A stretch of 64,000 nucleotides of DNA from the NCBI RefSeq assembly GCF_003473485.1, contig NC_053048.1, positions 30,314,755-30,378,754 on the forward strand, read 5' to 3'. Shown piece after piece: positions 31,508 to 62,205 of the stretch. The stretch is from Medicago truncatula (Eukaryota; Streptophyta; Magnoliopsida; Fabales; Fabaceae). The notes under the pieces are model-generated. The model was given only the letters and a program-made list of their open reading frames with translations. It did no database searches and had not been told where the DNA came from. The stretch's first letter is position 1; the number at the start of each line of letters is the position of its first letter. A program made the translations under genes and the position numbers.

Positions 31508-31527
31508 TGATGTAAGGGATTACGTAA
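31508..31527. promoter_or_regulatory. ocs/as-1-like element upstream of GST copy 2
   Basis: TGATGTAAGGGATTACGTAA, 678 bp before the ATG. It has two half sites around a GGGAT centre, close to the known as-1/ocs consensus bound by TGA-type bZIP factors. The first half site is TGATG instead of TGACG. Confidence 0.7.
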
Positions 31528-31559
31528 CCACAAGTGCTCAGAAAGTTTTGGGCAAAGAC

Positions 31560-31760
31560 CAAGAGCATATTTAATCGGGCGTCTCTCTTATCTAATAGAG
31601 ACTTCATTTTATTTTGAACTCTATTAGAGAAAGAAAAAAAAAAAAAAGACACATATCAGTTATCATCATTCATAAGTTATCATCATATTATAATAAATTA
31701 TGTATGTGTGATCCATTTAAGGTCTCTTTTTTAGTTTCCTACCACTGTAGATGTTCTAAG
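31560..31760. repeat. degenerate inverted-repeat MITE
   Basis: The left side has AGAGCATATTTAATCGGGCGTCTC and the right side CACTGTAGATGTTCT, a diverged version of the common GAGCATCTACAGTGG end of plant MITEs. The borders are not exact. Confidence 0.35.
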
Positions 31761-31891
31761 GGTCTCATTTGATAAACACTTTGATTAAGCTTTAATACAA
31801 TAAAAGTATATCTATGTTTATTGCTTTTTATATAAGTGTTTTTTTATTTTTTTTCTATATATTAATACAATAAAAGTTTATCATATACATC

Positions 31892-31987
31892 TCCGTGGGT
31901 ATAACTCAGTTGGCAGAGACATGCATTGTTATATGCAGGGGTCGGGATTCGAACCTCGGACACCCCACTTATTCTCTTTAAAAAAGG
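31892..31987 (+). mobile_element. tRNA-derived SINE (short)
   Basis: The A box TATAACTCAGTTGGCAGAG is at about 31900-31918 and the B box GTCGGGATTCGAACCTC at 31941-31957, followed by a T-rich stretch and a short A run. No clear target duplication. Confidence 0.7.
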
Positions 31988-32012
31988 TTAATTCTATACA
32001 CTAAAGGTGAAT

Positions 32013-32680
32013 TGTGTTTTCTTTTTCAAAACATTTCTAAATGTTTGGTAAAACAGTTCAGAGGGTAGTCTAGTCATCACGAACTTTCAAGAAATTTTCA
32101 TTATAATCACTAAGATTACAAAATGCTTAAACACACAAGCAATATACTTCCTTTGCTCAATCACACAAGAAAGAGATTTTCAATGCTCAAGGACACAAGC
32201 AAAAAACTTATATAAACTAACTTAATCAAATAAAATATTGTTTGGGTTCACACTTGATATACAATAAAAGGTGTAATACAATAAAATTTAGATAAACTGC
32301 GAGACATAAGAATTTCTAAATTATTAAAGTTCATAAGAAATTCTCTAGTGTTTTCTTTTTCAAAACTTTCTTCTAAATGTTTGGTAAAATAGTTCTGAGT
32401 TTGAAGCAAAAACACAAGACAATTTATATATACTAGTTGCTCTCACAAACCGAGAGTAGTATAATCCTCATGCATTTTTAAGAGATTTTCACTATAATTA
32501 CTAAGATTACAAAATGCTCAAGCACAAAAGCAATATCCTTCCTTTGCTCAATCACACAAGAAATAGACTTTCAATGCTCAAACACACAAGTAAAAAACTT
32601 ATATAATCTAACTTAATCAAATAAAAGATTGTTTGGTTTTACATTTGATATACAATCAGAATGTAATACAATAAAGTAAC
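32013..32680. repeat. tandem duplication of a ~300-bp unit
   Basis: Unit 1 (about 32013-32292) and unit 2 (about 32350-32680) share TGTTTTCTTTTTCAAAAC, TAAATGTTTGGTAAAA, CACTAAGATTACAAAATGCT, CCTTTGCTCAATCACACAAG and the AACTTAATCAAATAAAA...GATATACAAT block in the same order. Non-coding; unit 2 has a small insertion. Confidence 0.8.
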
Positions 32681-33425
32681 TCTGTCTTGCATATATTATG
32701 TATTATCTCTTACCAAATGAATTAAGTTCATGCGGACGTCGAACATGTAACTTTATGTATAATAATTGTTAAATAGTATAAGAGAGGTGTGGGTTGATTG
32801 GGGTGAAGACTTAAAAAGGAGTTAAATCCGTTAGATTGGTAACGAGTTGAATCTACAACCCATTCTCTCCAACCTTGTATTTCTTCACCAAACCAAAATA
32901 TTGCATTTTTTGTATAAATTTTTTTTTGTTCTATCTGAAGTTGCACGAAGAAGCTCTTACCACTAAGCTAGTTGCATGGTTTTAGTTTCTTGTGAAATTA
33001 TAATTATTATTTTTTATAACTTCAAATGTTATGGAACTCGGTTACAATTTTATACACTTTGAATGAAAAGTATTTAGGTATATGATTTGTTGTCACGTCA
33101 TTTTATGAATATGATAAATTATATATAAGTTTTAATTTCATTAAATGATATTTTCATACATCACTGTACATTTTATTATACTAATAACATATACAAATTA
33201 AAATGATTTTGTTATAAAGTCGTATGTCATTTTCTCTGAAATAAGGATTTATAACTACAATAGGATTAACAAGAACAACAAAATCCTAGAATTTCTTAAC
33301 CAAGAAGAAATCCTAGGTTGCATATATCTAGTATGACATCAAAATTTAAACAGAAACTAAAATGACAAACAAGTAGTTTAGACATTTTCCTTAAATTTCA
33401 CAAGTACATATCACCTTAAATTGAC

Positions 33426-35409
33426 CTATTTTGAACCAAAATGTTCTTCATAACGACCTTTGTAGAAAGCCAAAAGGGTCTCTCTAGGAGGCAATTTTTC
33501 CTTAACAATTGGGTGATTGTTGAATTCTTGGCTCCAATTGTAAAGCTTTGGAAATTCCTCAATAGTGAACAATTTCAGTCCAAATGCTTCTTGTATAGGA
33601 GAGAACCAAAAAGATATGACCACAGCAGCAATGTCAACAAAACCAATATCCTCCCCACCAAAGAATTTGTCCTTGAGCTCATTCTCAAGAAAATGAAGAG
33701 CCTCTTTTGTTTCCTCAATACTCTTCTCACGTTCTTTCTCATCAAGAGGGAAACAAACTTTCCGTGCACCATTGGAGCACTAGTCTCACAAATTAAGGTC
33801 ATTATTAGAAGTAAGAAAAAACAAATGTTAGGCACACTGAGTTAGTAGTATAAGTTAATTTTTTTTCTTTGTCAAATATCACACATGGTCTTTTAAGTTA
33901 GATGTTTATAACAAGTTAATCTTTTAATTTTCTTTTGTTATTAATTAGTTCTTTAAGTCGAAAAATATCAGCACTATGATTTTATTTTCATCAAACTCAG
34001 TTAAAATGTGTTTTTGTGCACGTTTAATATTTAGTTGGTATGTATAAATAAATAAAATATTCCTTTAAGCAATCAAAATTATTATGCTAAAAAACAAACA
34101 ATTGAGTTCAAGTGAGTAATGAATTCCACCAAATGATAAATTTTTCGTAAGAATCTGAGATTGATTTCTAATAAAACTATTCTTTATTAGACTGTATTTT
34201 ACTTATCTTTTGGGTGACCTGAGGATTATGAGGATCCTTTTCCCTTGATAATTGAATGGTTAACACCCAAAATAAAATTATTTTGTTAATCAAAGTTAAT
34301 CAAATGAACCTAAGATCTCAATCTTTCTTTGTTGAACGACATGGGCATAAGAGCATTCACAATGGAGACACTCATTTTTTGGTACTTAAATGAGTTCCAC
34401 GTGTACATATCACCCGTTTTTAATTTTTTAATAATAGTACCTAATAAGTACTCAAATACTCAATCCCTCCAACCCAGCATCTCACAAAAATTTCTTAAAT
34501 GAAATTCAATAATCAACTATTACCTTCGACCCTAAATATATGAGCCTTTTGCCAAAATTGCGGGGATTAACAAAGTTGGTTGTAGTATTAAATTTGTATA
34601 TAATTACTATTGTTTTTACAATTTTATCCTTAAGAGAGAGAGTAAATTTATGTTTTCAATATAATATTTATTGTTGATTGAAGAAAAAATGCAAAATAAA
34701 TATGGGTGTGTTGGTAAAGAAATAATTAATGTACTTGGAAACACCAAAAGGATCTTATAAAAAGGGACAAATTATTTTTCAAAAGGATCTTATAATTAGG
34801 ACGGAGGTAGTATCAATTACTTTATATCATTACATTTCAATTTTTTAATATTGAAAGAGTGTGAATCCTGCTTAAGATTGAGGTCTTAAGTAAGACCCCG
34901 AAAAAAAATTCTCCGATGGAATACCTAATAGGTACCAAATTTTAAATGTTGAAAACCTCCTTTAGAGATGGTCTAAGGACACACATAAGATCTCTAATTT
35001 ACTTGGTCAACTATTTAGTGCTAACTAAAGTTGGATATATGAACTTGGACTTGAGTTACACAGAAAAATAGAAGAGGGGAGTAATTACCTTATCATCAAT
35101 GAAATTGGACCAGAAACGAGCCAAGGCTCTTTTGGAAGGATCAGAAGGCAATATGGGATTTTGTTTCCAAGTCTCATCAATATATTCAAGAATCACAAGG
35201 GACTCTGATATGGGCTTATCATTATGAATAAAAACAGGAACTTTCTTATAAACAGGGTTGTATTTTTTGAGTGTCTCACTCAAGTTCCCAACCTTTTCTT
35301 GCTCATATTTGTATTCAACTCCCTTAAGTTTTAGAGCAATCTCCACCCTTGTTACAAATGGACTTTCAACCAATCCAAAAACCTTCACCTCTTCCTTATT
35401 TGATGCCAT
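33426..35409 (-). CDS. tau-class glutathione S-transferase, copy 3
   Basis: Exon 1 is 35409-35089 ([12 protein letters not shown]...FIDDK). Exon 2 is 33779-33426 (acceptor CTAG|TGC), beginning [16 protein letters not shown]. The protein has 224 residues with Ser16 (VESPFVTRV) and Glu69-Ser70. It belongs with copies 4 and 5 to a subgroup marked by KVFG at residues 9-12, an AFGLKLF segment in the C domain and the C-terminus HFGSK. It has PVFIHND where most copies have PVLVHND, next to the glutathione site. Pro replaces Thr in FPLDEKE. The TATA box is at about 35475-35486 and an as-1-like box at 36188. The 1309-bp intron holds a Stowaway-like element. Confidence 0.92.
34350..34980. mobile_element. 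degenerate MITE with nested Stowaway-like element in intron of GST copy 3
   Basis: The outer ends, GAGCATTCACAATGGAGACA on the left and AAAGGAGG...GAGATGGTCTAAGG on the right, form weak inverted repeats with TTGGTAC(T/C)TA blocks. Inside, about 34520-34810, a Stowaway-type pair (CCTTCGACCCTAAATATATG and its inverse ending TAATTAGGACGGAGGTAG|TA) is recognisable. Confidence 0.5.
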
Positions 35410-35639
35410 CGTAGGGCTTGATCAATTCTGTACTCAAACAACTGGTTTGGTCATTGATTGATTCCTAGGATTTACTTTTATATATAGAGCAAGGATTATT
35501 TTTCAACAAAAACGGTAGTCAACTATAGAAAACTAGTAAAAAGTAAACTAGAAAACTATAATAAATTCAGAAATAATTAATTATTCGATACACATGTATA
35601 GACACTGTACCCCTTAAAAAATGTATAGACACTATGTAC

Positions 35640-35889
35640 GAGGGTGAAGCTGAACCGAACCAAACTGAATTGTTTGCTAAATTTAAAATAATTGAACTGA
35701 ACTGTTTACATTTCGAATTGAACTGAACTGTTTCAAACCGAACTGAATTGTTCCGAACTGAATCGAACTGTTTATAATCGAACTGAATTGTTTTGAACCG
35801 AACTGAATTATTTCAGAACTGTCAGTAATAGTTCAGTTTTTGTTTAGTTTAGTTCAGTTCGGTTTTTTTATTTTTTTTGCCTACCCCTA
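35640..35889. repeat. second GAACTGAACTG-rich element
   Basis: The same architecture as 9616-10012: GAACCGAACC start, TTTGCTAAATTTAAAATAAT block, GAACTGAACTGTTTC runs, complementary CAGTTCGGTTTTT end and GCCTACCCCTAA border. It lies just upstream of the GST copy 3 promoter, between the TATA region and the as-1-like box. Confidence 0.7.
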
Positions 35890-36187
35890 ATTGTGTATCG
35901 ACCCTTTATGTCAAATTTTTTTTACATAAAAATGCTAATAAGTGTTCTTGATGCATTGTTTAAGCAACAAAAAATAATATTTTTTGTATAAAAATTTATA
36001 TAATTATTACTTTTAAATGTGTTTGACTTATAATTTTAAGATAAAATTTCTTATAATAGATTCCTTGAACAATACTCTTAAAACACTTGTTAACATAATC
36101 TTTTTTATAAACAAATATTAGTTTTGTGGAAATCAAATACTTGAAAAAAGGATTAAAAAAATTATATCTACGTAAATGTCCAAAAAG

Positions 36188-36207
36188 TGATGTAAGGGAT
36201 TACATTC
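36188..36207. promoter_or_regulatory. ocs/as-1-like element upstream of GST copy 3
   Basis: TGATGTAAGGGATTACATTC, 779 bp before the ATG. The flanking sequence CTATAAGCAATGAGTTTCGAG is shared with the other copies. The second half site is partly decayed. Confidence 0.6.
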
Positions 36208-37147
36208 CTATAAGCAATGAGTTTCGAGAAACTTTAGGCAAACACAAGCTAAAGAGTTTTTCAAATCTGCTTACACAGAACTAATTTTGATGAAAGCACT
36301 AATCCTTTTACATACAAAAATTAAATAATCTCAATGAATAAAAGACTTATATTAGTAAAACCAAACAAATAAATAAATGTTTATCATATAACCCTAATAA
36401 ATAGGTGTTTAGTTACTCATGATAACAAAAGACATGATACAAAAGAAATAAAACATACTTTAAATACATAGGTTGAGGAGAGAGACTACTCTTGATGTTC
36501 TTAATGGTTGCCTTTCTCTTGAATAACCAAGTTTTGATTGAGAATTCGTGAATAAGAGCTCTTGTTTTTATATGCATATATTATGAATTGGGTTAAAAAA
36601 CTGGTTTTTTTTCTTTCTTCCCAAACACGCAGAGAAAAAATAGCATATAACTATTTTGTCAGGGACCAAGGTGTGCGCCGCGCGTTGGGGCACATGTCTA
36701 GCATGTGGTAGCTGATAACGAGCTTTTTTCTCTTAGTTCCATGCGCCTGGGGTGTGTGGCCTCGATGGCCACTATTCCGTTTTTGTGTTTTTCTTCGTCT
36801 TTTCGAGTGTTTTTCTTTCTCCGATTTGGTTTTAAGGTTTGAGACATAATTTCTCCAACTTGTAATGTATTCATAGTTTCTAGAATTTCATTCCATGTCT
36901 TCCAAAACCTTCACGAGGTATCTTGTTTGCCGAATTACATGATTTTTCACTAAAAGACTCAAAACACTTATGAAATTGTTTGATTTATGGAGGAAACAAA
37001 ATTACATGACTTGATTTGATAACATTTCAAAATGTCCCTTAAACCATGAGCAACTTCTCTAAAAATCCTCTTTTTTGACTCAAGTAACTATTAAAATAAC
37101 TAAAAAACATGCTGAAAATAACGTAAGATAACATGTCATCATCTCTC
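36208..37147. other. intergenic, no gene seen
   Basis: AT-rich spacer between GST copies 3 and 4. It has a GC-richer patch at 36660-36760 without a domain. Confidence 0.4.
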
Positions 37148-38187: not shown

Positions 38188-40877
38188 CTATTTTGAACCA
38201 AAATGTTCTTCATAACGACCTTTGTAGAATGTCAAAAGGATCTCTCTAGGAGGCAATTTTTCATTAACAATTGGATGGTTGTTGAATTCTTGGCTCCAAT
38301 TATAAAGCTTGGGAAATTCCTCACTAGTGAACAATTTCAGTCCAAATGCTTCTTCTATAGGAGAGATCCAAAAAGATATGATCACAGCAGCAATGTCAAC
38401 AAAACCAATATCCTCTCCACCAAAGAATTTGTCTTTGAGCTCATTCTCAAGAAATCGAAGAGCCTCTTTTGTTTCCTCAATACTCTTCTCACGTTCTTTC
38501 TCATCAAAAGTGAAACAAGCTTTCCGTACATCATTCATACACTGGTCCCACAAATTAAGGCAATTATTAAATTATCCATGTTAACAGTGGAAGAAAAAAA
38601 TGCTAACTTCTGCTTTGTGATATAAGTTTAGAAGTTAAATGTAAAAGTTTTTTTTATTAGAAATTGTGCGTTCAATATTTTAAAAGTTTTAAAATTATAT
38701 TTTTCATATAAAATTTAATTTTAAATTCTATTTTAAGTTTATTAACTTGTGCCCCAAAAACACAAGTTAGCATGACCAAAAAATTTATACGCACATAGTA
38801 GTATAAGTTAATTAATTTATTTTGGGTTAATAGGCTTTTACCCCCTGCAATATAGGTCACTTTTGATTTTTCCCCTGTAAAATTTTTTTGTCAGATTTCG
38901 TCCTTGTAAAAATTTTTTGTTTTGAAAAACCCCCATAGGCCAGCTGACTGTGCATTTTCGCTGATGTGGCACGCTGACTGTATAATTTTTATTATTTTAT
39001 TGTGTACAGGTGGCATTTGTGATTTTTTTTTAAAAAAATAATTAAAAATAACACTTTTTATAAATATTTCTTATAAAAAATAATAAGATTTTTAGAATTT
39101 CTAAATAATTTTTCTTATTATAAAAATAACACTTTTTATAAAAATTTCGAAATTTTTACAAAAAAAATTCAAATTTTTCATTTTATGAGATTTTTTTTAT
39201 TTTTCTAGTATTTTATCAGATTTTTTTTCATTATTTTTATAAATTTTTCTAGATTTTTTTTTCGTTTTTTTTATTTTAAATTTTTTTTCCTGAATTTTTG
39301 TATTTTTTTTAAAAAAAAAATCACACATGCCACGTGTATACAATAAAAAATATACAGTCAGCGCGCCACATCATCAGAAAATGGTGACTCAGCGTGCCAC
39401 ATCAGCGAAAATGCACAGTTAGCTAACCTAGGGGGGGTTTTCCAAAACAAAAAAAATTTACAAGGACGGAATTTGACAAAAAAATTTCACAGGGGAAAAC
39501 CAAAAGTGACCTATATTATCGGGGGTAAAGGTCTATTAACCCATTTGTTTTTGTATAGGAAGTCTTCTATGGTAACTATCAATCTTGTTCATTTGCTCAA
39601 AAATAAAAATAAAAACTATCTTTGTTCATAAATAGAAAAGAAGTTTAGTAGAAGGATAATTATTAAATTTTCAAGTATATAAGTCACAGTGTATTCAAAG
39701 TTAACTTTCACTACTTAAATCATGTTTTCTTTTGGCGTAAACTCTCGCTAAGATTTTTAATGATGCTACATGTCTAAAATTGAATTTGAACCCAAGACCT
39801 TAATTATAATAGGAGAGACCTGAATTATCCCATCTTGGGGTGTACATGTGTTGGATCAACCAAAAATATCTGGTCAAACACACACAAAAACTCAAAAAAG
39901 TGGGTTGAGTTGGATAATTGGGTGAATATGATTTCCAAAATTGACACAAGACATTCTTTATATCGAAAATCAAAACATGCTAAAGTTAAAAATTAGGATA
40001 TTGTACTTTTTGGTTATTTTGATGTTAATACAATTTTATCTCATGTAATTTTAGTTTGTTCTAAGTATTTTATCATCAAATCTTATTTGATTTGTGATTT
40101 ATTATTTTATGATGTTAAAATATAGCGAAAATAAGCTACACAATCTTTTTCAGAAAATAAAAAAGTTGAGTAATTTTTATGAAAAAATATGAGCTCATCA
40201 TTTAGTTAGTTAAAATTAACAATAATTTTTTTGGGTAACCCGCTACCCAACGCAACTCAAACTGAAAATTAGTGGGTTTAGTAAACCGGTCCAATAATGT
40301 AACAGCTGATTATTTTACCACACCTAAACCGGAGTACCATATACGATTTTGATCTTTGATTTGATCAAACTCAACCTAAACCGACCCAACCCCTATCTAA
40401 GCGCTCTTAAATACTAATTAAATTATGTTATTTGTTACTCCTAACAAACATAATTAATGCTCCCCTAAAAAAAAACATATTTAATGCTAACTAAAGTTGG
40501 ATATATGAACTTGAACCAGAGGTACACAAAGAAAAATAGAAGAGGGGAGTAATTACCTTGTCATCAATGAAATTGGACCAGAAACGAGCCATGGCTCTTT
40601 GATAAGGATCAGAAGGCAAGATAGGGTTTTGTTTCCAAGTCTCATCAATATACTCAAGAATCACAAGTGATTCAGAGATGGGCTTGTCATTATAAACTAA
40701 AACAGGAACTTTCTTATAAACAGGGTTGTAATTTTTGAGTGTATCACTCAAGTTCCCAAACTTTTCGTTCTCACATTTGTATTCAACTCCCTTCAACTTT
40801 AGAGCTATTTCCACCCTGGTTGAAAATGGACTTCCCACCATTCCAAAAACCTTCACCTCTTCCTTATTTGATGCCAT
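38188..40877 (-). CDS. tau-class glutathione S-transferase, copy 4
   Basis: Exon 1 is 40877-40557 ([20 protein letters not shown]...FIDDK). Exon 2 is 38541-38188 (acceptor CCAG|TGT), beginning CMNDVRKACFTFDEKE. The protein has 224 residues with Ser16 (VGSPFSTRV) and Glu69-Ser70. Tyr62 in VLVYNDKP replaces the His62 of most copies, and Cys35 (YKCE) replaces Tyr. Exon 2 is closest to copies 3 and 5 (HFGSK end), whereas residues 14-22 of exon 1 match copy 6, so the gene looks mosaic. The TATA box (TGTATAAAAG) is at about 40945-40956. An as-1-like box lies at 42966, more than 2 kb upstream because of later insertions. The 2015-bp intron contains a 718-bp MITE. Confidence 0.92.
38824..39541. mobile_element. 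MULE-type MITE in intron of GST copy 4
   Basis: The 718-bp element starts GGGTTAATAGGCTTTTACCC and ends with the near-inverse. The flanks ATTTATTTT (38815-38823) and ATTTGTTTT (39542-39550) match at 8 of 9 positions. The long inverted arms include GCCACATCAGCGAAAATGCA and its partner TGCATTTTCGCTGATGTGGC. The centre is an AT-rich palindromic stretch. Confidence 0.85.
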
Positions 40878-42965: not shown

Positions 42966-42985
42966 TGATGTAAGGGATTACGTAG
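42966..42985. promoter_or_regulatory. ocs/as-1-like element upstream of GST copy 4
   Basis: TGATGTAAGGGATTACGTAG, 2089 bp before the ATG. The conserved flank CTATAAGCAAT follows. Confidence 0.65.
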
Positions 42986-43104
42986 CTATAAGCAATTAAA
43001 TTATCGAGAATTTTTTGACCAAACATTAACGTAAGAGTTTTAATCCTTACACGCAACTAATTTTGGGGAATTAGGAAAAACAATAACTTATATAATGTGA
43101 TTTT

Positions 43105-48058: not shown

Positions 48059-50361
48059 CTATTTTGAACCAAAATGACTTTCATAACGAGCTTTGTAGAA
48101 GGCCAAAAGGGTCTCTCTAGGAGGCAGTTTTTCCTTGACAATTGGGTGATTGTTGAATTCTTGGCTCCAATTGTAAAGCTTTGGAAATTCTTCACTTGTG
48201 AACAATTTCAGTCCAAATGCTTCTTGTATAATAGGAATCCAAAAAGCTATGAGTACGGCTGCAATGTCAACAAAGCCAATCTCCTCCCCACCAAAGAATT
48301 TGTCTTTGAGCTCATTCTCAAGAAATTGAAGAGCCTCTTTTGTTTCCTCAATACTCTTCTCACGTTCTTTCTCATCAAGAGTGAAACAAGCTTTCCGTAC
48401 ACCACTCAAACACTGCAAAAAGAAATGTTACGCACATAGTAGTATAAGTTCATTAATTTGCTTTTTTTATATAAGAAGTTTTCTATGGTAACTTTCTTTT
48501 TCTATGGTAACTATTAATTTGCAAGTATAGGGTAAGGCATATGCCACTCTTAAAGAGTTGTGGATAACTTATCTAACAATCATGAAAACTAATCATATGA
48601 GTAGATTTTGCAAATGGTTTCACAAACTAATTTTTACTATAGTTGTAAATTAGTTTATGTGGCTCATTTTCATTGGTTATTGAAAAAATTAATCACAGTT
48701 CTTCAAGAAATAGTTTAGAAAAAACATATTTGTTATTCTTACGTTAATTATATTAAAAATCAATTTGAGATTTATTAAAGAACTCTTCTTCGAGAAGAGA
48801 GTGGTAAGATCTAATTTTAATGAGAAGGGGACACCCTATCCACCCAACTCACATCTCTCCATTATCTTATTTCTCGATAAATGATATTTATACAATCACT
48901 TTTTAACAACTTTTGGAACAACCGTCTCTTTTATATTCGCATGTGTTTTTATCCTCTCTCTCTTCTTCTCTCTCTCTATTGTTTTTATCCAATAAAAAAA
49001 GAGAAAAAGTGGTTTTCAAAAAAGTTGTCTAAAATTGATTGTATAAAAATCTTTCTTCTTGTTTCTCCTCTCTCATTGTTTTATGCCTAGAGAGAACATG
49101 TGGTGTGAGACTCCTCCAAGATGTAAAATTGGTGTTAAGTGTTTAAATATTACTCATTTTAATTTAAGAGAGAATAAAAGATACTTCCTCTATCTCATTT
49201 TAAATGACATACTTTAAAAATGTGTATTATTCACATAATATATTTTGACAATATTTTTATATTAGGCTAAAATATGGTTTTAGTCCCTGCAAATATGGCT
49301 CGTTTTGGTTTTAGTCTCTGTAAAAAAAAAAAATTGTTTTTGGTCCCTGCAATTTTTTTTTGTTTTTTAAAATAGTCCCTGGAGGGACTATTTTAAAAAA
49401 CAAAAAAATTTTGCAGGGACCTTTTTAAATAAAAATATATTTTGCAGGGACCAAAAACTACAAAATCGGTTTAGTCATCATGTGCCACGTATACAAATCA
49501 TCACAAAAATGGGGTCAGAGACTATTTTAAAAAACAAAAAATTTTGCAGGGACCAAAAACAATTTTTTTTTTACAGGAACTAATACCAAAACGAGACATA
49601 TTTACAGAGACTAAAACCATATTTTAGCCTTTATATTAATATACAAAGACAAAAATTGGTGTATAAAATATTGAATTTGTCTCAACGAATATTTTCAAAA
49701 TCCAATTATCATAATTTTTTTAATATATTATTAAAGATATTTAAGATTAAAATTATGCATTTTAGAAGAATATGGCCCAATCCCTGTGAGCTTAACTCAA
49801 TTGGTAGGGATATTGCATGTTATATGTAGGGGTCGGGGTTCAAACCCCAAACACCCTATTTCTCCACGTTTAATTGTGTGAGCTCTAGGCAATAGACAGC
49901 TTGACAAAAAAAAAAAAGACATGGCCCAAAACACACCTAAGATCTCAAATTTAGTTACACAAATATTTAATGCTAACTTAAGTTGGATATTTGAACTTGA
50001 CTAGAGTTACACAAAGAAAATAGAAGAGGGGAGTAATTACCTTGTCATCTATGAGGTTGGACCAAAATCGAACCAAGGCTCTTTGGTATGGATCAGAAGG
50101 CAATATTGGATTTTGTTTCCAAGTCTCATCAATATATTCAAGAATCACAAGTGACTCTGCTATAGGCTTATCATTATGAATAAAAACAGGAACCTTCTTA
50201 TAAACAGGGTTGTATTTTTTGAGTGTATCACTCAAGTTCCCAAACTTCTCTTTCTCGTATATATATTCAACTCCCTTCAATTTTAGAGCAATCTCCACCC
50301 TTGTTACAAATGGACTTTCAACCAATCCAAAAACCTTCACCTCTTCCTTATTTGATGCCAT
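48059..50361 (-). CDS. tau-class glutathione S-transferase, copy 5
   Basis: Exon 1 is 50361-50041 ([12 protein letters not shown]...LIDDK). Exon 2 is 48412-48059 (acceptor TTTTTGCAG|TGT), beginning CLSGVRKACFTLDEKE. The protein has 224 residues with Ser16 (VESPFVTRV) and Glu69-Ser70, and PVFIHND as in copy 3. It belongs to the KVFG/HFGSK subgroup with copies 3 and 4. Val replaces Ala in RALVRFW. The TATA box is at about 50428-50441, and the best-preserved as-1-like box lies only 467 bp upstream. The 1628-bp intron has gained a 365-bp MITE and a SINE. Confidence 0.92.
49265..49629. mobile_element. MULE-type MITE in intron of GST copy 5
   Basis: The 365-bp element starts GGCTAAAATATGGTTTTAGT and ends with its inverse. 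The flanks are TTTATATTA at 49256-49264 and TTTATATTA at 49630-49638, an exact 9-bp duplication. The arms contain GTCCCTGCAAATATGGCTCG-type blocks. Confidence 0.92.
49781..49920 (+). mobile_element. tRNA-derived SINE in intron of GST copy 5
   Basis: The A box GCTTAACTCAATTGGTAGGG, B box GTCGGGGTTCAAACCCC and terminal A run are present. It is flanked by exact ATGGCCCAA repeats (49772-49780 and 49921-49929). Confidence 0.9.
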
Positions 50362-50827: not shown

Positions 50828-50847
50828 TGACGTAAGGGATTACGTAA
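50828..50847. promoter_or_regulatory. ocs/as-1-like element upstream of GST copy 5
   Basis: TGACGTAAGGGATTACGTAA, 467 bp before the ATG. The most complete copy: a TGACG half site and an inverted ACGTAA half site around GGGAT, followed by CTATAAGCAATGA. Confidence 0.8.
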
Positions 50848-51008
50848 CTATAAGCAATGAATATCAAGAAATTTTTGGCCAAACACAAGTGCAAGAGTTT
50901 TTTCCTTACACGCGGTGAATTATGAAGATAAAAAAACTATATACTATGATTATGTTTAGAAAGTCTTTTTTATTTTAAAGGAGATTATGTTTAGAAAGTC
51001 ATACGTTA

Positions 51009-51110
51009 AAATATACACCATCCAGTCACTATTATAAGCAAAAATCAACATTTTAGATTCATTCATTAAATGATGTATATAATCTATAATAAAGATTTAC
51101 TTAAAGGACC
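51009..51110. mobile_element. truncated Stowaway MITE
   Basis: CACCATCCAGTCACTATTAT then TTTAGATTCATTCATTAAAT and GATGTATATAATCTATAAT match the left half of the element at 29941-30087. The right arm is missing. Confidence 0.65.
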
Positions 51111-51865: not shown

Positions 51866-53280
51866 TGAGTTCTAGGCTTGGAGCTAATCCCAGCTATGTA
51901 TGGCGAAGTATATTCAGTGCTAAAATTGTGGTTAAATAGGGTGCTAGATGGAGGATTGGTTCCGGTGCTAGTGTTCCTTTGTTTGGTGCTTCATGGCTTA
52001 AAGATGGATGTTCCCTCTCAACACAAAGCCTTCTTTATGAGCCACTTGCTCATGTCAAAGTTCAATACATCATCGAACCATTGAAAAAGGTTTGGAATGC
52101 TGCCTTAATTTCTAATCTGTTTGATCATAATACTTCCTAGCTTATTTTAAATACTCATCTCCTTCCTCTTGTTCATGAAGATAAAATTATTTGGAAGGCT
52201 GAGAAAATGGTAGTTATTCTGTTCATAGTGCATATCAAATTTGTGTTACAAAAATTGCAGATAACTCTCATTTGCATGTTTCGGGTAAGTGGAGTTCGAT
52301 TTGGAAGCTTAAGGTCCCTCCCAAGATTCAAAACTTTGTTTGGCGTGTGTGTCGGGGTTGTTTCGCTACACGTGCACGCCTAAGTAGTTGTGGTATTCAT
52401 TGTCCTAATGATTGTGTGGAACTAATTATGAAGATATCATTCATGTCTTATTAGAATGTTCAGGTGCGATGCAAGTGTGACGGGAGGTTAACTTATCGGA
52501 TATTATTGATAGAACTTTACGTCAAAATTATAACATGAATTCTTTGATCTTTTCTCTTCTTGACCAACTGCCGTTTGCGCAAAAAGAATTGTTTGTGATG
52601 ATCATGTGGAGCTTGTGGAAGCGTAGGAATTTAAAATTATGGCAACAACAAAATGAAACGCGTATGCATGTTGTTGAACGAGCCCGCCACCTCTTAGATG
52701 ATTGGAGAACCGCCCAAGAAGTCAGATCGCACAAAGCGACTGGCATCCCTGCACAACCGAACATTGTTATTCATGGTCCTGTCATCGAGTGGACGAAGCC
52801 GACATATGGTAGGTACTAATATAATATTGATGCCTCCTTTTCTAACTCTCTAAATATGGTAGGTATTGGCATATGTATTTGTGATGTTCATGGTGAGTTT
52901 GTCATGGCTAAGATAGACTGTTTCTCTCCTCTTTGTGATGTTGATGTCGGCGAGGTTGTTGGACTTCACATGGCGTTACAATGGGTGGCTGATCTTCATT
53001 ATGACCATGTTAATTTTGTTTTGGATTCCAAGTCTGTTGTTGTACACTTTAATTCAAACCTAGGTGATAGTAGTGAACTAGGTTGTATCATTCAGGTTTG
53101 TAGGCAGTTGTTTGATTGTAATTTTCAGAACTCTCATATCGAGTTCAATAGGAGGCAAGCCAATGGGGTCGCTCATGAATTAGATAGGGTAGATCCATCT
53201 CATGCTAGCTCCCACATTTATGATGATGTACCGTCATATATCCGAGACTTGATAGTTAATGAAAAGCAATGATTTCTTCC
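51866..53280 (+). mobile_element. 5'-truncated LINE with zf-RVT and RNase H domains
   Basis: Frames on the plus strand read PSYVWRSIFSAKIVV and GASVPLFGASWLKDG (RT C-terminal region). Next come VSGKWSSIWKLKVPPKIQNF and VWRVCRGCFATRARLSSCGI (zinc-binding RT-associated domain). From 52856 there is an RNase H-like domain (GIGICICDVHGEFV, EVVGLHMALQWVADL, VLDSKSVV, HIEFNRRQANGVAHELDR) ending at 53272. An A run follows. Several stops and frameshifts make it non-functional. It sits between GST copies 5 and 6, in the opposite orientation to the LINE at 43-47 kb and without that element's RRM and endonuclease. Confidence 0.85.
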
Positions 53281-53508
53281 AAAAAAAAAAGGTATATTCG
53301 GTCAGAAAAAGAGCAAAATATAAGACATCATACCCTCTCATTATACTTCCATGAGGGATAATCCCCATGGAAATTTTATTACAAACTGAAATCCAAGGCT
53401 CAATATATCTAATTTGACATGAAAAATCAAACATAAACAACTAAATGACAAACAAGTAGTTTAAACATATCTCTTTAAATCTCCCCAAAACATATGACTA
53501 AAATTAAT

Positions 53509-56047
53509 CTATTTTGAAGCAACAAGACTTTCATAACGAGCTTTGAAGAAGGCCAAAAGTCCTTCTCTACGAGGCAAGTTTTCCTTGACAATTGGGTGGT
53601 TGTTGAAGTCTTGACTCCAATTGTAAAGCTTAGGAAATTTCTCACTTGTGAACAACTTCAATCCTGTTACTTCTTGTACAATAGGGAACCAAAAAGCTAT
53701 GAAGACCGCAGTAATGTCAATAAGTCCAATATCATCTCCACCAAAGAACTTGTCCTTGAGCTCATTCTCAAGAAATTGAAAAGCGTCTTCTGTTTCCTCA
53801 AAACTCTTCTCACGTTCCTTCTCATCAAGAGTGAAAGCAGTTTTCCATGCAGGAATCATACACTGGTCTCACAAATTAAGGTCATTATAAAAATTAGGCA
53901 TGTAAAATAAAAGTAAGAAAAAAGAATAAATGTTATGTTCTGTTGAAATTTGGGGCCGCCTAACTCATCCTTACAAAACCGGCTTGTAAGGTGATGATTG
54001 TCTTCTCTTTATATATGAGACTTGAGTTTTTTCCAATACACCCCCTCACGCCCATCACTCTTTGGGCTTGGTGCGTGAATAGGTAGGTAACCCTTGAATT
54101 CGACAAACTCTAATACCATGTCAAAATTTGGGGTAAGAGTCTCATCTATCCTATGTGGGACTTGGGTTTTTCCCAATACACCTCCCTCACGCCCAGCACT
54201 CTTTGAGCTTGGTGCATGAATAGGTAGGTGACCCTTGAATTTGACAAGCTATTATACCATGTTGAAATTTGGGGCCTAACTCATCCTTACAAAACCAACT
54301 TGTAAGGTAAGAATTGCCTCCTCTTTATAAACTGTCATCAAAAGTCTTATTTATCCGATGTGAAACTTGGGTTTTTCCCAATATGTTTCTTGAGTTGGTA
54401 GAATAAGAAAATAAACACCAATTGAACACCAATTTCTTACGTTGTGAGAGTATTGCACCTTCCATTAGCCAGAACATTTGTAGATATGTTAAATTGTTAT
54501 GTTATTCGTTCAAATTATGTTCCTTAAGTTGGTAGAACTCAAATTATGTTCAACTTAAGAGCGTACTCGTTCTTCAACAAGATAGTAGTAAGAATTTTTT
54601 AAGGGTGTGTAAAAGATGAATGTAAAGTGAGAGAAAAAATAATAAATCCTTAGATATTGGTTCAAATGTGCTGTTTGTAATATTGGTCTCGTGAAAATTA
54701 TAAACTATAAAATAACTTACTTTTAATTTGTTTTTAATCAAATTACATCATAAGTCATTTAAGTTATTTAATAGTAATCAATTAGTTTAGAGTTTTTTTT
54801 CGTACCACTTATATCATTTAAGTTATTTTCCTTCAAACAAAATCATTTAAGTTATTTAATTGTAACAAATTAGTTCTTTAAATATTTTTCGTAACGCTTA
54901 ATTCTTTTATGTTATTTAATTGTAATTTTTAAGCTCCAAATAACTTAAATAACCTAATTGATAAAAAAATAAAAAAACTTGAAGATTTAACTTGTTAAAA
55001 TTAACTAATATAAATGACCTCCTTCAAATAAAAACAAAGATAAAAGATCTAAGTGGTACGATAAAAATTGAAAGAACCAATTTATTATAATTAAATAACT
55101 TAAAAATTCTCTAGTGTAATTTAATCTTTTTTAGTTTTAGTATAGTTTTGTTCCAATCGAGTTGATCAGATTTTAGATGTCTCCTTAAGAGGAGCCTTGG
55201 ACTTCCACAAATTTACAATGTTGCTGAAGTCTATCCCCTGCACTAGACCCATATTGGTTAAGATAGCTTATTCATACACCTCATACTCTTGGTTCGATTA
55301 AGCAAATCTTATAAACTAATTAAATAAATTGTAAGTTATATAAAAACTATAATTATAACAATATTTTAAATTTTAAGAAATATACTTAAATTAAGATAAA
55401 ATTTTATCTACATAAATGTTTAGTATCATAGTGAGTATGATAGAATCACAATAACCCACAAGAATTTTTTAAAAGTTAAACTTTGTAGTTTCTATAAAAT
55501 CACAGTGGATTATCGTAATTCTGACATATCTTTCGTGATACTAAAGACGCACAAAGATTTTTAAACTATCAAAATTTTATTTTTTTAAGAATAAGCAATC
55601 AAAATTATTGTGTTAATTAATTAAAGTAAAATAAATGGACTTGACATAAAAAATTAACTTACTCAAAGATTTCATCCTAATTAAAGTTGGATATAAATCA
55701 CTAAAAAAAGAGATGATTGAAATTACCTTATCATCTATAAACTTGGACCAGAAACGTGCCAAGGCTCTTTTATAAGGATCAGAAGGCAAGATTGGATTTT
55801 GTTTCCAAGTCTCATCAATATATTCAATAATCACAAGAGATTCTGCTATAGGTTTATCATTATGAACTAATACAGGAACTTTCTTATAAACAGGGTTGTA
55901 TTTAATGACTGTATCACTCAAATTCCCAACCTTTTCTTCCTCATATCTGTATTCAACACCCTTCAACTTGAGAGCAATCTCCACCCTTGTTGAAAATGGA
56001 CTTCCCACAAGTCCAAAAAGCTTCACCTCTTCCTGATTTAATGCCAT
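53509..56047 (-). CDS. tau-class glutathione S-transferase, copy 6
   Basis: Exon 1 is 56047-55727 ([20 protein letters not shown]...FIDDK). Exon 2 is 53862-53509 (acceptor CCAG|TGT), beginning [16 protein letters not shown]. The protein has 224 residues with Ser16 in VGSPFSTRV and Glu69-Ser70 in KPIAESLVI. The C-terminus is ESLVASK, placing it with copies 1, 2 and 7. Asn-Gln replaces the Asn-Lys of the MASNKEE start. A TATATA core lies at about 56120-56130. The as-1-like box is 1541 bp upstream, displaced by a SINE and a degenerate MITE. The 1864-bp intron has a TRIM-like insertion at its 3' side. Confidence 0.92.
53943..54390 (-). mobile_element. TRIM-like element in intron of GST copy 6
   Basis: Two LTR-like segments (about 53943-54030 and 54262-54390) share TGTTGAAATTTGGGGCC and CCTAACTCATCCTTACAAAA, then a CTTGTAAGGT block. 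A degenerate middle segment (54120-54180) repeats the TGGGACTTGGGTTTTTCCCAATACACC end. Internal strings CCCTCACGCCCA and GGTGCGTGAATAGGTAGG occur twice. TACCATG junctions (54115 and 54256) sit where a primer site would lie. It is related to the family at 26946-28910. Confidence 0.65.
54400..55610. other. intron DNA of GST copy 6, no further gene
   Basis: AT-rich. It contains weak repeats of the TTTAAGTTATTTAATTGTAA type between 54720 and 55100, partly mirrored (an imperfect inverted repeat), related to 33880-34060 in the intron of copy 3. Confidence 0.4.
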
Positions 56048-56949
56048 CTTAGTGCTTCAACTATTTGCTCTAACAACTGTTTTTGCTTGTTTGATTGATA
56101 CATTTGTACATAAGATCTACATATATATAGACCAAAGAATTATTTTTTTGTTTGACGATTAGATACGTAAGTTTTTTTTTTTACAAAGTCGAAAATATAT
56201 GTTTTTTTTTCTGTGAAAAAAAGACCAAGTTGAACGCAAATTCCTAGGATTATATTTTACCATTTTACAAATACGAAGTTTTAAATGTCTTTGAGCGATG
56301 ACTAGTCTCTATAAGAAACTTTGTGGGGGACATATAAGATGGATTATATCCTTCTATTCAAACTAAGAATCTATAGAATTCTTTTTATATATAAAACAAA
56401 TAATAAACACCATTTAACATTTATTATGATATTGATATTATCGGTTAAGCTCGATCTCTACTTGCAAGAGCAAGTATGGAAGAAAATGTAACCAAGTTGT
56501 TTGCACTCCGGTGGTAAGGAGCTCCTTCTAAGGACGTATCCGAGGAATATCAGATTTGATTCTCAAGGGAAACAACGTTTGGCCAGTGCGCATGCAGCGC
56601 CTTGTTATGAAATTTATTAGTCTATTTTTAAGATATTTTTAATTTAAGTTTTTAGGTTTTAATAATTAAAATTGAAAACAATAATAATACAAAACCACAA
56701 CAACAACAAAAAAAAATGAAAAAATGGTCTTCATGAGTTTGGCATTTCAATTGACAAACTCGTTGCCACGTCACCAACGAGTGCGCCATTTCATTTGGCA
56801 TACTCATGCTTCAAAATTTTAACTAGGGCATATTGGTATTTAAATTTTTAAGTAGGACAGATTGGTAATAAAAACTCGCAACTAGGGCATACATGAAAAA
56901 AAAACCAGATAAATTACTGATTTTTAAAGACTATCGAAATAAACTAAAT

Positions 56950-57390
56950 TTATTACTTTCTTCATCTCAAAGTATATATCCTTTTAAAAAAAAATATTTT
57001 AAATTATACGCCGCTTTACAATACTAATAAAATATTAATGGTATTTTTCTATTATATTTTTAACTATTTATTACTTTTTTTCTTTAATTCTTTCATTTAT
57101 ATTTCTCATATCATTTATTAAGGACAATATCGTAAAATAACTCATAGTATTTTTTTTTTTTTATCAAGTAACCTAGTGGCTAGAGAAATTCACCTTAAAG
57201 ATGAATAAGTAGGGTGTCCGGGTTCGAACCTCGGCCCATGCACATATTGTGCATTATCCCTTACCAAATGAGCTAAGCTCATGGGGACAACTCATAGTAT
57301 CTTTTTACCATACAAAATTAATTACATTTTTTAATACGTGTGAAATGTTCAAAACATCGTATAATTGAGAATGGACTCAGTAGTATTTGA
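56950..57390. mobile_element. degenerate Stowaway-like MITE split by a SINE
   Basis: The left end TTACTTTCTTCATCTCAAAG and right end TTGAGAATGGACTCAGTAGTA are inverse of each other in the usual Stowaway pattern. The SINE at 57151-57288 lies inside, so it inserted later. Confidence 0.5.
57151..57288 (-). mobile_element. tRNA-derived SINE upstream of GST copy 6
   Basis: On the minus strand, GAGCTTAGCTCATTTGGTAAG (A box), GAGGTTCGAACCCGGACACC (B box) and a terminal A run (plus-strand T run at 57151). It is flanked by exact AACTCATAGTAT repeats (57139-57150 and 57289-57300). Confidence 0.92.
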
Positions 57391-57587
57391 TAAAGATGAT
57401 ACATCCATTTGGAATTAATAAATTGATTCAATGCAAGTTACAAATATTACTTCAAATTAAACTTATATTAAGAGATATTTTTATTTTTAAACACTTATAT
57501 TATGATGTGTTGCACAAGGCAAGGATCCTAGTAATAAATCTTTGACTACGTTGTACCAAAAAAAGAATTTTTGACTACATTAAAATT

Positions 57588-57607
57588 TGATGTAAGTGAT
57601 GACGTAA
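57588..57607. promoter_or_regulatory. ocs/as-1-like element upstream of GST copy 6
   Basis: TGATGTAAGTGATGACGTAA, 1541 bp before the ATG. It differs from the sister boxes in the centre and in having TGACG as the second half site in direct orientation, which makes it the most as-1-like by arrangement. A CGTAAGTAATGAG flank follows. Confidence 0.6.
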
Positions 57608-58645
57608 ACGTAAGTAATGAGTATATGGATAATTTTGGCAAAATCGACACGTAAGACACATACGCGCTTTAACCACCATGAAAGAACCGATGTATTGGCA
57701 CCCACCTCCCTTCCATGTTCCTTCTTCCTCCTACACACTTCATTAAGTTCGGTTTGACTCAATCAAATTTATATCGGCTTAAAATTCAACTAGAGTTGTC
57801 ATAAATTTTCATTCCAACTCAAACTTGATGACTTGACTCAATAACAAATGTTCAAAGAGTATTGTTTAAGGATACTTGTTTAAGTTATAATCCTTCAAGA
57901 AATATTGTTTTCTTTTTTGGGTAAAGAAGGAATATTATTTAAGGATATTTGTCAAAAAAATATTTGTTAAAGTTATAACCGTATAATTTCTAATATAAAA
58001 ATTATTATTTTTAAAAACTTAAACAATATCTTTAGAGTATTTATTAGCCTTTTTCATAGATTTAACTTGTTAGCTGAAAAACTTAACCAAAAGAAAGAAA
58101 AAACTACTCTAGTACCCCAACGTGTATATTATTTTATAATACCAATGCACTATATTGATATTTTTTTCCTTGTTATAATTTTACAATTAATCTCTTTAAT
58201 TTTTTAATGTATCTTTCTTATACCATTATTAACTAATGATATTTTTGTAAAGTAACTCATATTTTTGTACTTCATATAATATTAATTTCATTTATTAATT
58301 TATGTAATATTGCCAAAGTGGTATATAATTTGAAATAGAGAGAATAATCGTAGCCAAAGAGAGACAAAACCACTTATAATTGGTCTCAAAATCACATAAA
58401 ATTATAGATGATTTTGCTTCCTTTATAGATGAACGTATGCTTCGCCTCCTCTTGTAAATAATCTTGCTCCCTAGTACACTAAATTGTCGATGTGAGATCA
58501 TCTTGCTGGTTTGTAAGCTTGTATTTATTTTTATTTTTTAAAAAAATTGTGTGTTCAAAAGCATCTTAGGTCCGAGTCTATGATTCCTACCTACAACCAA
58601 CCATAATTTAGAACACACAATACCTATAACCAACCATAATTTCTT

Positions 58646-58931
58646 GGCTTAATAGCACTTTTAACCCTTTAAGAAAAAAACTACAAAATCGCTCCTTAAA
58701 TTTTGCATTTGTGGCAGTTTTGGCCCCCAAGATCAATTTTGATTCGGTCTACGCTGACGTGACGCCCTAATTGAAGTGTCATGTGTCATTTTTTTTTACC
58801 AAAACTTGATCTTAGGGACCAAAACTGCTACAGTTGCAAAACTTAGAGGACGATTTTTGTAGTTTTTTTTTTCTTAAGGGGCCAAAATCGCAACTTCGTG
58901 AAAGTTAGGGGACAAAAACTGCTATTAAGCC
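58646..58931. mobile_element. MULE-type MITE downstream of GST copy 7
   Basis: The 286-bp element starts GGCTTAATAGCACTTTTAAC and ends with the near-inverse GCTATTAAGCC. The flanks TAATTTCTT (58637-58645) and TAATTTATT (58932-58940) match at 8 of 9 positions. The arms include TTTTGGCCCCCAAGATCAAT and its partner. Confidence 0.8.
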
Positions 58932-59039
58932 TAATTTATTTGCCAACGCTTTAGCCAGGAATAAAAACACACAATTTCTACCTATAACCCATATGGTGTG
59001 TGTCTCACTTTAGGATTTTACTTCACGATACTTCTTTGC

Positions 59040-59520
59040 AACATAATTCTACATATATGTGGCTTTGGCAAATCGATCCGAGTGATGGTTATTCGATCAG
59101 AGGTGTGTATCAGATGCTTCCCAACTAGGAGTATGCGCGATCTTAGATGCTACTACATACTTCATTTGGCATAAGCAGGTTTCCTTGAAGGTTTCGATTT
59201 TGGCTTGGAGACTCTTACAAAACAGGTTACTGACAAAGGATAATTTGTTGGTGGTGGTATTCTTTCTCACGACAATCAATTATGTGTGACTTGGTGTGGT
59301 GGTTTGGAAACTGCTCAACATTTGTTTTCATTTTGTCCTTGTTGTGCTTCTCTTAGGGACCTTGTTAGGTTTTGACTTGGCATTTGTTCCGTTGTTCGGT
59401 ACTATTTACATAAACACACTATTCAGTTTTCTTATTTATCAGGCGGTTTGCGAGCAAGTCAATCTTTTTTTTGCAGCTAGTTTGACTTTGTTGTATATGT
59501 TGATTTAATTATAAAGTGAT
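59040..59520 (+). mobile_element. LINE fragment (zinc-binding RT-associated domain)
   Basis: The plus-strand frames read MWLWQIDPSDGYSIRGVYQM and GGGILSHDNQLCVTWCGGLE followed by TAQHLFSFCPCCASLRDLV, typical of the region after RT in plant LINEs. Frameshifts and stops are present. It looks like the same LINE family as 43105-47200. Confidence 0.7.
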
Positions 59521-59733
59521 GACATGTTATTTTCCAGGGAATAAGGACTTTATTATTTATTAATTAAAATAGTGTAAACAAGGACAAAACCCTAGACTTC
59601 TTAAACAATGAGAAATCATAGGTCGCATATATCTTAATTGAAATAAAAATTCAAATAAAATTAACTAAATGACAAACAATTAATCCAGACAATTCTCCTT
59701 CAATTCCCTAAATATCTATCACCTTAACATAAT

Positions 59734-61021
59734 CTATTTTGAAGCAAGAAGACTTTCATAACGAGCTTTAAAGTAAGTCAAAAGTCCTTCTCTAGGAGGC
59801 AATTTATCCTTAACAATTGGATGGTTGGTGAAGTCTTGACTCCATTTGTAAAGCTTGGGAAATTTCTCACTAGTGAACAAATTCAAGTTTGTTGCTTCTT
59901 GTACAATGGGGAACCAAAAAGCTATGAAAACTGCAGCAATATCAACAATTCCAATCTCTTCTCCACCAAAGAAAGTCTCCTTAAGCTCATTCTCAAGAAC
60001 TTGAAAAGCCTCTTCTGTTTCCTCAATAGCTTTCTCACGTTCTTTCTCATCAATAGTGAAAGCAGCTTTTCGTGCAGCACTTAAACACTGGTTTAAAAAA
60101 TTAAGGTGATTATAAAAATTATGTATGTTAAAAGTAAGAAAGAAACTATCACATTTGCTAGTTTCACAAAAATTATGAATAAAAATAATGATAATAATTT
60201 TATCATATTATTCTTCTTAAATATTGATGTATTCACTATTATCGTGAGTGAAATATAATGACTTGTGACGGATTGGTTGAGTATTTGTTATTGTTACATC
60301 ACTAAGAACATGAATGACTATGAGTATTCACATGTATATATAATAGTCATCCGATGTTCGTTTCATTGAATAAATATGATATTTGAAGCCATTTTCTATG
60401 TGGATATACGCTAGAGAGACATTTAGCGAAGTTTGTGGTATTTACATAAATTTACAAATATCCATATGTATCATGTTTTTCTTCTTTCCCTCTAGAAAAT
60501 AAAGACACGATAATAACATTCTCGTGATGTCAGTTATTCAGTTAGTAGAGACAATGCATATTATATGTAGGGGTCAGAATTCGAACTTCGAACACCTCAC
60601 TTATGCACTTTAAAATTGAATATTTAGTTACCAGACTAGTTGACAAAAAAAAAAAAGACACGAGATTTACACAACAAAAAGAATAGAAGATTAGAATTAC
60701 CTTATCATCTATGAACTTTGTCCAGAAACGAGCCAAGGCTCTTTTGTAAGGATCAGAAGGTAAGATAGGATTTTGCTTCCAAGTTTCATCAACATACTCA
60801 AGAATCACAAGGGATTCTGATATGGGCTTATCATTATGAACTAATACAGGAACCTTTTTATAAATAGGGTTGTATTTTTTGAGTGTATCACTTAAGTTCC
60901 CTCCCTTTTCTAACTCATATTTGTATTCAACACCCTTCAATTTTAGAGCAATTTCCACCCTACTCACAAATGGACTTGCCATCATTCCAAAAAGCTTCAC
61001 ATTTTCCTGATTTGATGCCAT
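59734..61021 (-). CDS. tau-class glutathione S-transferase, copy 7
   Basis: Exon 1 is 61021-60701 ([20 protein letters not shown]...FIDDK). Exon 2 is 60087-59734 (acceptor CACTG-side CAG|TGT), beginning [16 protein letters not shown] and open to the stop, though it has no ATG of its own. The protein has 224 residues with Ser16 in MASPFVSRV and Glu69-Ser70. It is the most diverged copy: QEN for KEE, GKET-region KETFFGGEE for [15 protein letters not shown] for DFNNHP, and the C-terminus ESLLASK. A TATATATAG core lies at about 61092-61103 and an as-1-like box 1165 bp upstream. It has the shortest intron (613 bp), which nevertheless contains a SINE. Confidence 0.92.
60511..60653 (+). mobile_element. 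tRNA-derived SINE in intron of GST copy 7
   Basis: The A-box-like CAGTTATTCAGTTAGTAGAG and B box GTCAGAATTCGAACTTCG are degenerate; a terminal A run is present. AAAGACACGA occurs at 60501-60510 and 60654-60663 as the target duplication. The SINE ends about 40 bp from the exon 1 donor. Confidence 0.8.
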
Positions 61022-61109
61022 CTTAGCGCTTCAATTCTTAATCAAACAACTGTTTTTGGCTTATTGATATATATTTCTTGCTAATATCTACTTCTATATA
61101 TAGAGCTAG

Positions 61110-62185
61110 GATTGTTTCTTTTACAGTTAGAGCTATAAAAAAATTTCAACAAAATTGGAAGTCAACGAGAAAAGTCTATTAAATTAATTGCAATTTGAAG
61201 GAAATGTAATTAGTGGCGCCTCCCTTTGACCAAATGTATGTAGGATCACCATTTTTTTTCCTTTGACTCATAAGATATTACTAGTACTAAGTTCCTTATG
61301 ATAAGTTGTTTTTTTGCAATTCTAACATAATGTTAGAAAAGAAAATGCAATGTGTTTAATTTAGTATTTCATTCACATACATTGTTAATATTAACCACCG
61401 TAATGTTAGAAATATTTGACTTCAATCATAATTATTTATAGAGTTTTGCTAACAAGTTCCTCCTTTGGGGCACTTGTTAAAGATACAAAAATAGAAATAA
61501 TAGTTGATAAATGTTAAGTAGAAAATGTTACTTTCTAAAATTTCAATACATTGAATGCATCATTTTTAAGACAAAACTTCTTCTTTAGTCTTCTTAACTA
61601 GTGTCCTTAGGGCTTATATGTACACTTTTGTATATGAATGTGTTTAACTCTAATTTTTTTTATCTTCTAATACACTTAATAGTTTAAACTAGACAAAATT
61701 ACACACGTGATCACTCAACTACATTTTAGATGATGATTTGGTGTTTTTTTTTTATTTCACATCAATTATGTCCGTTTGCATATAAATTTTCAAGTTTTAA
61801 ATCAAAAAAATTTGTGCAAACATAGACGAAGGACCGTAGATTTAAAGACTAATAGTTCACGCAGAAATGAATGTATATTCAAATCAATCTAAATGACTAA
61901 AATAAATGTAAAAATATCGTTACATGAAATTTAGTTAAGGGACTATGTAAATAAATTTTGCCTTTTAATTATGGTTGTATCTTTTAAAACGGAGTGCGTG
62001 TCTATATATACACACACATTTCTTTTTTCAAAATTACTTTATTTACACAAAAAAGATGTTTTTTAAAAGTGCTTTGTATATGGAGTACTCTTTAGAGAGA
62101 AGATATTGGATGAGTCAAATGATCTAGAAAATCAGTGATACTTCTCCTACGAAGAGAAAATTCTGACAACATGAGTGCCAAGAAA
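61110..62185. other. upstream region of GST copy 7, no other gene
   Basis: AT-rich promoter-side DNA up to the as-1-like box. No exon, RNA gene or clear TE border found. Confidence 0.4.
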
Positions 62186-62205
62186 TGACGTAAGGGATTA
62201 CATAG
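62186..62205. promoter_or_regulatory. ocs/as-1-like element upstream of GST copy 7
   Basis: TGACGTAAGGGATTACATAG, 1165 bp before the ATG. It is preceded by GTGCCAAGAAA and followed by CCGTAAGCAATGAG as in the other copies. Confidence 0.7.

Follow-up and report, generated by a model that had tools for sequence, protein, structure and literature searches.

A tandem tau GST array of Medicago truncatula in which most genes are preceded by an ocs/as-1-like box

The DNA analysed here is a stretch of 64,000 nucleotides of Medicago truncatula (G000:C7:30314755-30378754, from an assembly of 429.9 Mb; hereafter the window), which holds seven tau-class glutathione S-transferase (GST) genes, six of them preceded by a 20-bp box with the consensus and half-site spacing of ocs/as-1 elements. 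The genes were located by tblastn with exon peptides across 144 kb, that is, the window plus 20 kb to its left and 60 kb to its right, and form a tandem tau array of 16 two-exon GSTs: seven in the window, all on the minus strand and each recognized as a tau member by its exon pair, and nine more, on both strands, reaching window coordinate 97749. In order, strand and spacing they agree with MtGSTU28-U43 in the gene table of a GST family study of this species (PMC7894904), the window being the left part, U28-U34. The labels G1-G9 are used here for U28-U36 and G11-G17 for U37-U43, and G10 is a GST first-exon fragment (window coordinates 75417-75629, plus strand, L026) between G9 and G11, for which tblastn found no second exon. 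Pfam scans, which covered the exons of G6 and G7 only, gave GST_N on both genes and GST_C on G6; the solved structure nearest to the G3 protein is 6ghf, and 2vo4, a GST inducible by 2,4-dichlorophenoxyacetic acid (2,4-D), matches too. The window genes differ from one another by a synonymous divergence (dS) of 0.21-0.55, and from five right-hand genes by 0.74-1.40.

A first-pass annotation of the window had placed the box at six coordinates, each on the promoter side of one GST. A scan of the window and of 100 shuffles of it with the pattern TGAYGTAAGGGATTACRTAR, up to 3 mismatches being allowed, recovered all six and only those (Table 1), with a mean of 0.07 matches per shuffle and six never reached, and every box does lie upstream of one minus-strand tau GST, 466-2088 bp from its ATG. 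The seventh gene, G1 (ATG at 24615), had been considered boxless, and a position weight matrix (PWM) applied to its 4.5 kb upstream agrees: its best score there is 4.7, whereas the maxima of 60 single-base shuffles average 6.1. The box at 57588, singled out as a variant, is one, but not the only one: the box at 36188, which ends in ATTC, also shows two mismatches.

The ocs/as-1 consensus is the 20-mer TGACGYAAGSRMTKACGYMM. For the comparison its half-sites were relaxed to TGAYG and ACRY, a relaxation picked after the boxes had been seen, and with TGAYG as first half-site all six window boxes fall within 2 mismatches (0 at 31508 and 50828, 1 at 42966 and 57588, 2 at 36188 and 62186), their half-sites being 12 bp apart in every case. 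The ocs/as-1-like identity proposed at first sight agrees with both consensus and spacing; judged by their sequence, the window boxes are ocs/as-1-like elements, which would make them a real regulatory feature of a kind already known in GST promoters. Such elements are reported to be required for salicylate induction in the Arabidopsis GSTF8, GSTU7 and GSTU19 promoters (PMC10799724). The same type of element stands upstream of GSTs in both plants, two of the Arabidopsis genes being tau; function was assayed there, whereas here the element is known from sequence, with an ancestral box traced through an array and found up to 2.1 kb from the gene. By eye, the box at 50828 also agrees with 17 of the 19 bases printed for a probe of the cauliflower mosaic virus (CaMV) 35S as-1 element, the first 13 included (PMC4258656), but its second half-site differs, and the Medicago box is native, single and far from its gene.

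Comparison sets were provided by the 144-kb region, resampled loci and genome-wide scans. The exact box pattern occurs at 4 places in the 429.9 Mb, all inside the window, and at up to 2 mismatches it occurs at 16, of which 7 are in this GST array. The scan for extra copies that the first-pass annotation had suggested extends the boxes to the right part of the array: within the 144 kb, and allowing up to 3 mismatches, the relaxed ocs consensus is found at 13 places, each upstream of a different array gene, or 13 of the 16 genes. The PWM was trained on 12 of these boxes, which score at least 24 by construction; the thirteenth (87232) scores 16.8 and other places reach at most 12.3. Genome-wide, the ocs consensus at up to 2 mismatches gives 85 strand matches at 73 places. 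Eight of these places precede one of 56 GST_N hits by no more than 2.3 kb, where 0.02 would be expected; this array accounts for six of the eight, which are related copies, and a GST group on C1 for the other two, and taken as two independent events they have a chance probability of about 2e-4. Loci accompanied 30 of the 56 GST_N hits, and 20 of these loci lie off C7; in three of the 20 (L044, L046, L049) a match within 2 mismatches stands some 0.25-0.73 kb upstream (0.1 per 20 in resampled sequence); the remaining 20 off-array hits, judged by consensus places alone, add C1:44167996. The box is therefore usual in this array, where 13 of 16 genes have it, and sporadic at GST loci elsewhere.

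The proposal that the boxes were inherited with the gene duplications is borne out by related boxes at six or seven right-hand genes, together with the dS given above between the window genes and five right-hand genes. When the 3-kb upstream regions of the window genes were compared pairwise by BLAST, the matches clustered in the box region and in the 100-200 bp next to the gene, the exceptions being part of the coding region of the next gene (G2-G3) and a 50-bp match between G2 and G6; this BLAST found no box-region match for G2-G7 and some other pairs in which both genes are boxed. Among the six, gapless conservation peaks at the box, and wide conservation around it was rejected: identity on the 5′ side is 0.54 over 10 bp and then 0.28-0.37, and on the 3′ side 0.70 and 0.47, then 0.29-0.43. 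Fitted on a dS tree for 12 boxed genes, the rate of the box is 0.42 times the synonymous one (twice the log-likelihood difference, 2dlnL, 20.9; four-fold sites 1.12), and that of its positions 1-16, a stretch chosen afterwards, 0.30 (2dlnL 28.0). The box is under constraint over the 12 genes, and the case is weak for the six window boxes alone, for which strong constraint was set aside on weak or non-significant column counts, permutation and rate; in one such count, 14 of the 20 box columns are invariant, as are 72 of 128 third positions (P 0.16).

The distance between box and gene varies along the array. The boxes nearest to the ATG, at 94-209 bp, are those of G9, G15, G16 and G17; those of G11, G12 and G14 stand at 917, 531 and 487 bp. 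Displacement by insertion is indicated at G4, because a dispersed repeat, with copies from C1 to C8 (40 of 2393 candidates scored), sits in the gap between its box and its proximal promoter. Insertions may also have displaced the boxes of the other window genes, the proximal position probably being the older one. Transcription starting far upstream, next to the box, was also considered and dismissed, since a TATA motif lies within 82 bp of the ATG in all seven window genes; the proximal stretch that bears it is conserved in all of them, including the unboxed G1. In five of the seven aligned proximal promoters (G1, G2, G3, G5 and G7), a W-box-like TTGAC is present about 120-180 bp upstream of the ATG.

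The shared flank that the first-pass annotation had described beside the box is less general than stated: TAAGCAATGA is exact at three (36211, 50851, 62209), has one mismatch at two (42989, 57611) and is absent at the 31508 box of G2, where its position is occupied by CAAGTGCTCA, which matches the ocs core at 8 of 10 bases. This flank itself matches the ocs core YAAGSRMTKA, 18 bp from the core of the box. A 10/10 match on one strand of a random 26-bp window has a frequency of 0.001; as a 10-mer with one mismatch allowed, TAAGCAATGA is fairly common in the window, with 14 matches where 8.6 are expected. The right-hand boxes have no such second core. The Arabidopsis GRXC9 promoter is reported to contain two full as-1-like elements, one at -80 to -99 and one at -114 to -133, and to need both (PMC4677692), and the adjacency of two units is common to both systems, but the second unit of the Medicago window is a 10-base core match only. 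By analogy with the GRXC9 double element, the flank may be a decayed second ocs unit. A Dof-like AAAAAG abuts the box at two of the six window boxes (G3, G5) and three of the seven right-hand ones; a Dof site beside an ocs element has a precedent in OBP1/GST6 (PMC11696086), and the motif is regarded here as a lead only.

Table 1. Coordinates of GST genes, boxes, flanks and the gap repeat in the window (distances are to the ATG).
Feature	Positions	Strand	Details
Tau GST G1 (MtGSTU28), two coding exons, no upstream box	22585..24615	-	tblastn exon pair; PWM scan
Tau GST G2 (MtGSTU29)	29207..30830	-	tblastn exon pair
Tau GST G3 (MtGSTU30)	33429..35409	-	tblastn exon pair; solved tau relatives of protein
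Tau GST G4 (MtGSTU31)	38191..40877	-	tblastn exon pair
Tau GST G5 (MtGSTU32)	48062..50361	-	tblastn exon pair
Tau GST G6 (MtGSTU33)	53512..56047	-	tblastn exon pair; Pfam GST_N and GST_C
Tau GST G7 (MtGSTU34)	59737..61021	-	tblastn exon pair; Pfam GST_N on exon 1
ocs/as-1-like box of G2, 677 bp	31508..31527	-	0 mismatches
ocs/as-1-like box of G3, variant, 778 bp	36188..36207	-	2 mismatches
ocs/as-1-like box of G4, 2088 bp	42966..42985	-	0 mismatches
ocs/as-1-like box of G5, 466 bp	50828..50847	-	0 mismatches
ocs/as-1-like box of G6, variant, 1540 bp	57588..57607	-	2 mismatches
ocs/as-1-like box of G7, 1164 bp	62186..62205	-	0 mismatches
Flank TAAGCAATGA of G3 box	36211..36220	-	10/10 to ocs core
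Flank TAAGCAATTA of G4 box	42989..42998	-	10/10 to ocs core
Flank TAAGCAATGA of G5 box	50851..50860	-	10/10 to ocs core
Flank TAAGTAATGA of G6 box	57611..57620	-	9/10 to ocs core
Flank TAAGCAATGA of G7 box	62209..62218	-	10/10 to ocs core
Dispersed repeat, about 650 bp, between G4 box and G4 proximal promoter	42000..42651		copies 81-93% identity

Other repeats occur in the array and among the genome-wide matches. A 77-nt SINE-like (short interspersed nuclear element) repeat has three copies (31906-31982, 49797-49873, 60538-60614), two of them in GST introns, and shows what we take to be the look of a tRNA-like internal promoter. An 83-nt pair (29938-30020 and 51013-51095, 89% identity, 21 kb apart) has one copy in the G2 intron and the other about 650 bp upstream of G5, beyond the G5 box, and an open frame at 52856-53272 with an RNase H-like reverse-transcriptase domain (PF13456, E 6.8e-13) is a retroelement remnant between G5 and G6. 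Outside the array, the three zero-mismatch consensus places belong to one transposon-like repeat. A transposon-like family (L005, L006/L011, L007, L008, L010 and L012, on C5, C8 and C2) bears palindromic ocs elements TGACGTAAGCGCTTACGTCA, exact in three loci and with one mismatch in three. Some copies have two or three of them, spaced by about 75 bp and followed by an open frame; for a Mutator-type transposase domain there is no more than a hint, a PF03108 match that falls short of the cut-off (E 0.003). The ocs-like 20-mer TGAGGTAAGGGATGATGTAA recurs at seven places, including L017, L018 and L020, and is part of another repeat, since L017 and L018 share 314 bp at 99% identity.

The explanation preferred here, with a probability of roughly 0.68, is that the boxes are ocs/as-1-type response elements for TGA factors, of the basic leucine zipper (bZIP) class, inherited from the ancestor of the tandem array. 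That ancestor would have carried the box and passed copies on with the duplications; in four right-hand genes the box lies just upstream, and in the window genes it lies 0.5-2.1 kb away, with unrelated DNA in between. TGA-type bZIP dimers are predicted to occupy the two half-sites, and salicylate, auxin-like, oxylipin or xenobiotic stress would then raise transcription from the TATA promoter of each gene; the window boxes would do so from afar, in the manner of short enhancers. A further and more tentative step, rather less probable than its converse, would regard the window as a natural distance series, in which insertions in each paralogue shifted a constrained proximal element, accompanied by a second ocs-like core at 18 bp, over 0.5-2.1 kb; now a short distal enhancer, this element may reach neighbouring promoters, so that the unboxed G1 could respond with the array. 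As to the joint response that the first-pass annotation had envisaged, a uniform one is disfavoured by the unboxed genes and the unequal distances.

Several observations weigh against the TGA-factor explanation. The half-sites are often imperfect: ACG is present in both only at 50828, in one at four boxes and in neither at 36188, the first half-site is TGATG in four of the six, and none of the seven right-hand boxes keeps ACG at a half-site. The window boxes, at 466-2088 bp, are far from the ATG for this kind of element; the functional GRXC9 elements lie at -80 to -133 (PMC4677692), and none of the six falls within the roughly 200 bp of the gene start that GRXC9 would suggest, a range that four of the seven right-hand boxes approximately keep. 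Equal frequency of the motif in random spacers, which would have spoken against the first-pass annotation, is ruled out for close matches, but at up to 3 mismatches the genome-wide matches are at chance level, since the box gives 168 strand matches and a reversed control pattern 235. G1, G8 and G13 have no box, their best PWM scores being 4.7, 6.8 and 5.4 (the shuffle comparison refers to G1 alone). For the six window genes by themselves the box rate is 0.54 (2dlnL 4.4), its 14 invariant columns of 20 do not differ significantly from 24 of 41 four-fold columns (P 0.21), and a permutation test gives a P of 0.13. Finally, the rate test is biased towards slow rates, both by the finding of boxes through similarity and by the exclusion of G14 and the unboxed genes.

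The alternative that survives best, although unlikely, is that the boxes are former ocs elements, mostly passive relics after their displacement, and that the conserved proximal 100-200 bp drives expression. The long and unequal distances, the weak constraint on the six boxes alone and the conserved TATA stretch of all seven genes would suit such relics, but in the six boxes the rate of positions 1-16 is 0.26 of dS (2dlnL 11.8; a stretch picked afterwards) and the box is a local peak of gapless conservation, 0.91 and 0.81 as compared to 0.28-0.54 on the 5′ side. Weaker binding, or binding by different bZIP factors, is also a live rival, because the half-sites are often TGATG instead of TGACG. 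Here the boxes would be bound by another bZIP group, in accordance with many half-sites reading TGATGTAA or TTACATCA, with a TGACG start in only 2 of the 13 boxes (50828 and 62186) and with ACG at either half-site in only 5 of the 13. This appears improbable, since spacing and internal consensus are those of ocs/as-1, functional as-1-like elements can have degenerate second half-sites (PMC4677692), and C-to-T changes at CpG could yield TGATG with no change of binder. That a transposable element landing upstream of each gene brought the boxes is very improbable: repeats are present in the array and a transposon-like family of the genome bears ocs palindromes, but the exact box is found nowhere else in the genome (a search with the 20-bp pattern, not with the island of about 100 bp) and the 13 boxes lie upstream of 13 different genes of one array, near the ATG at four.

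No published account of the boxes in this array was found in the literature searched. Medtr7g065600 (MtGSTU34, G7) is reported to be up 2.3-fold in a transgenic alfalfa line (PMC7238615), a result with no bearing on salicylate, auxin or xenobiotic induction. The family study of M. truncatula GSTs scanned 1 kb upstream with PlantCARE, its main text containing 'as-1' 0 times (PMC7894904), and a scan of that length misses three of the six window boxes (U31, U33 and U34), because those lie more than 1 kb upstream. The box is here placed in its full array and its frequency followed genome-wide, the distance series being one mildly new aspect. The as-1/ocs boxes help account for the induction of single GSTs by salicylate, auxins and safeners, and since one box is traceable in 13 of 16 paralogues, 94 to 2088 bp from the ATG, the array permits a direct natural test of the working range of the element and, through its loss at G1, G8 and G13, of what a missing element does.

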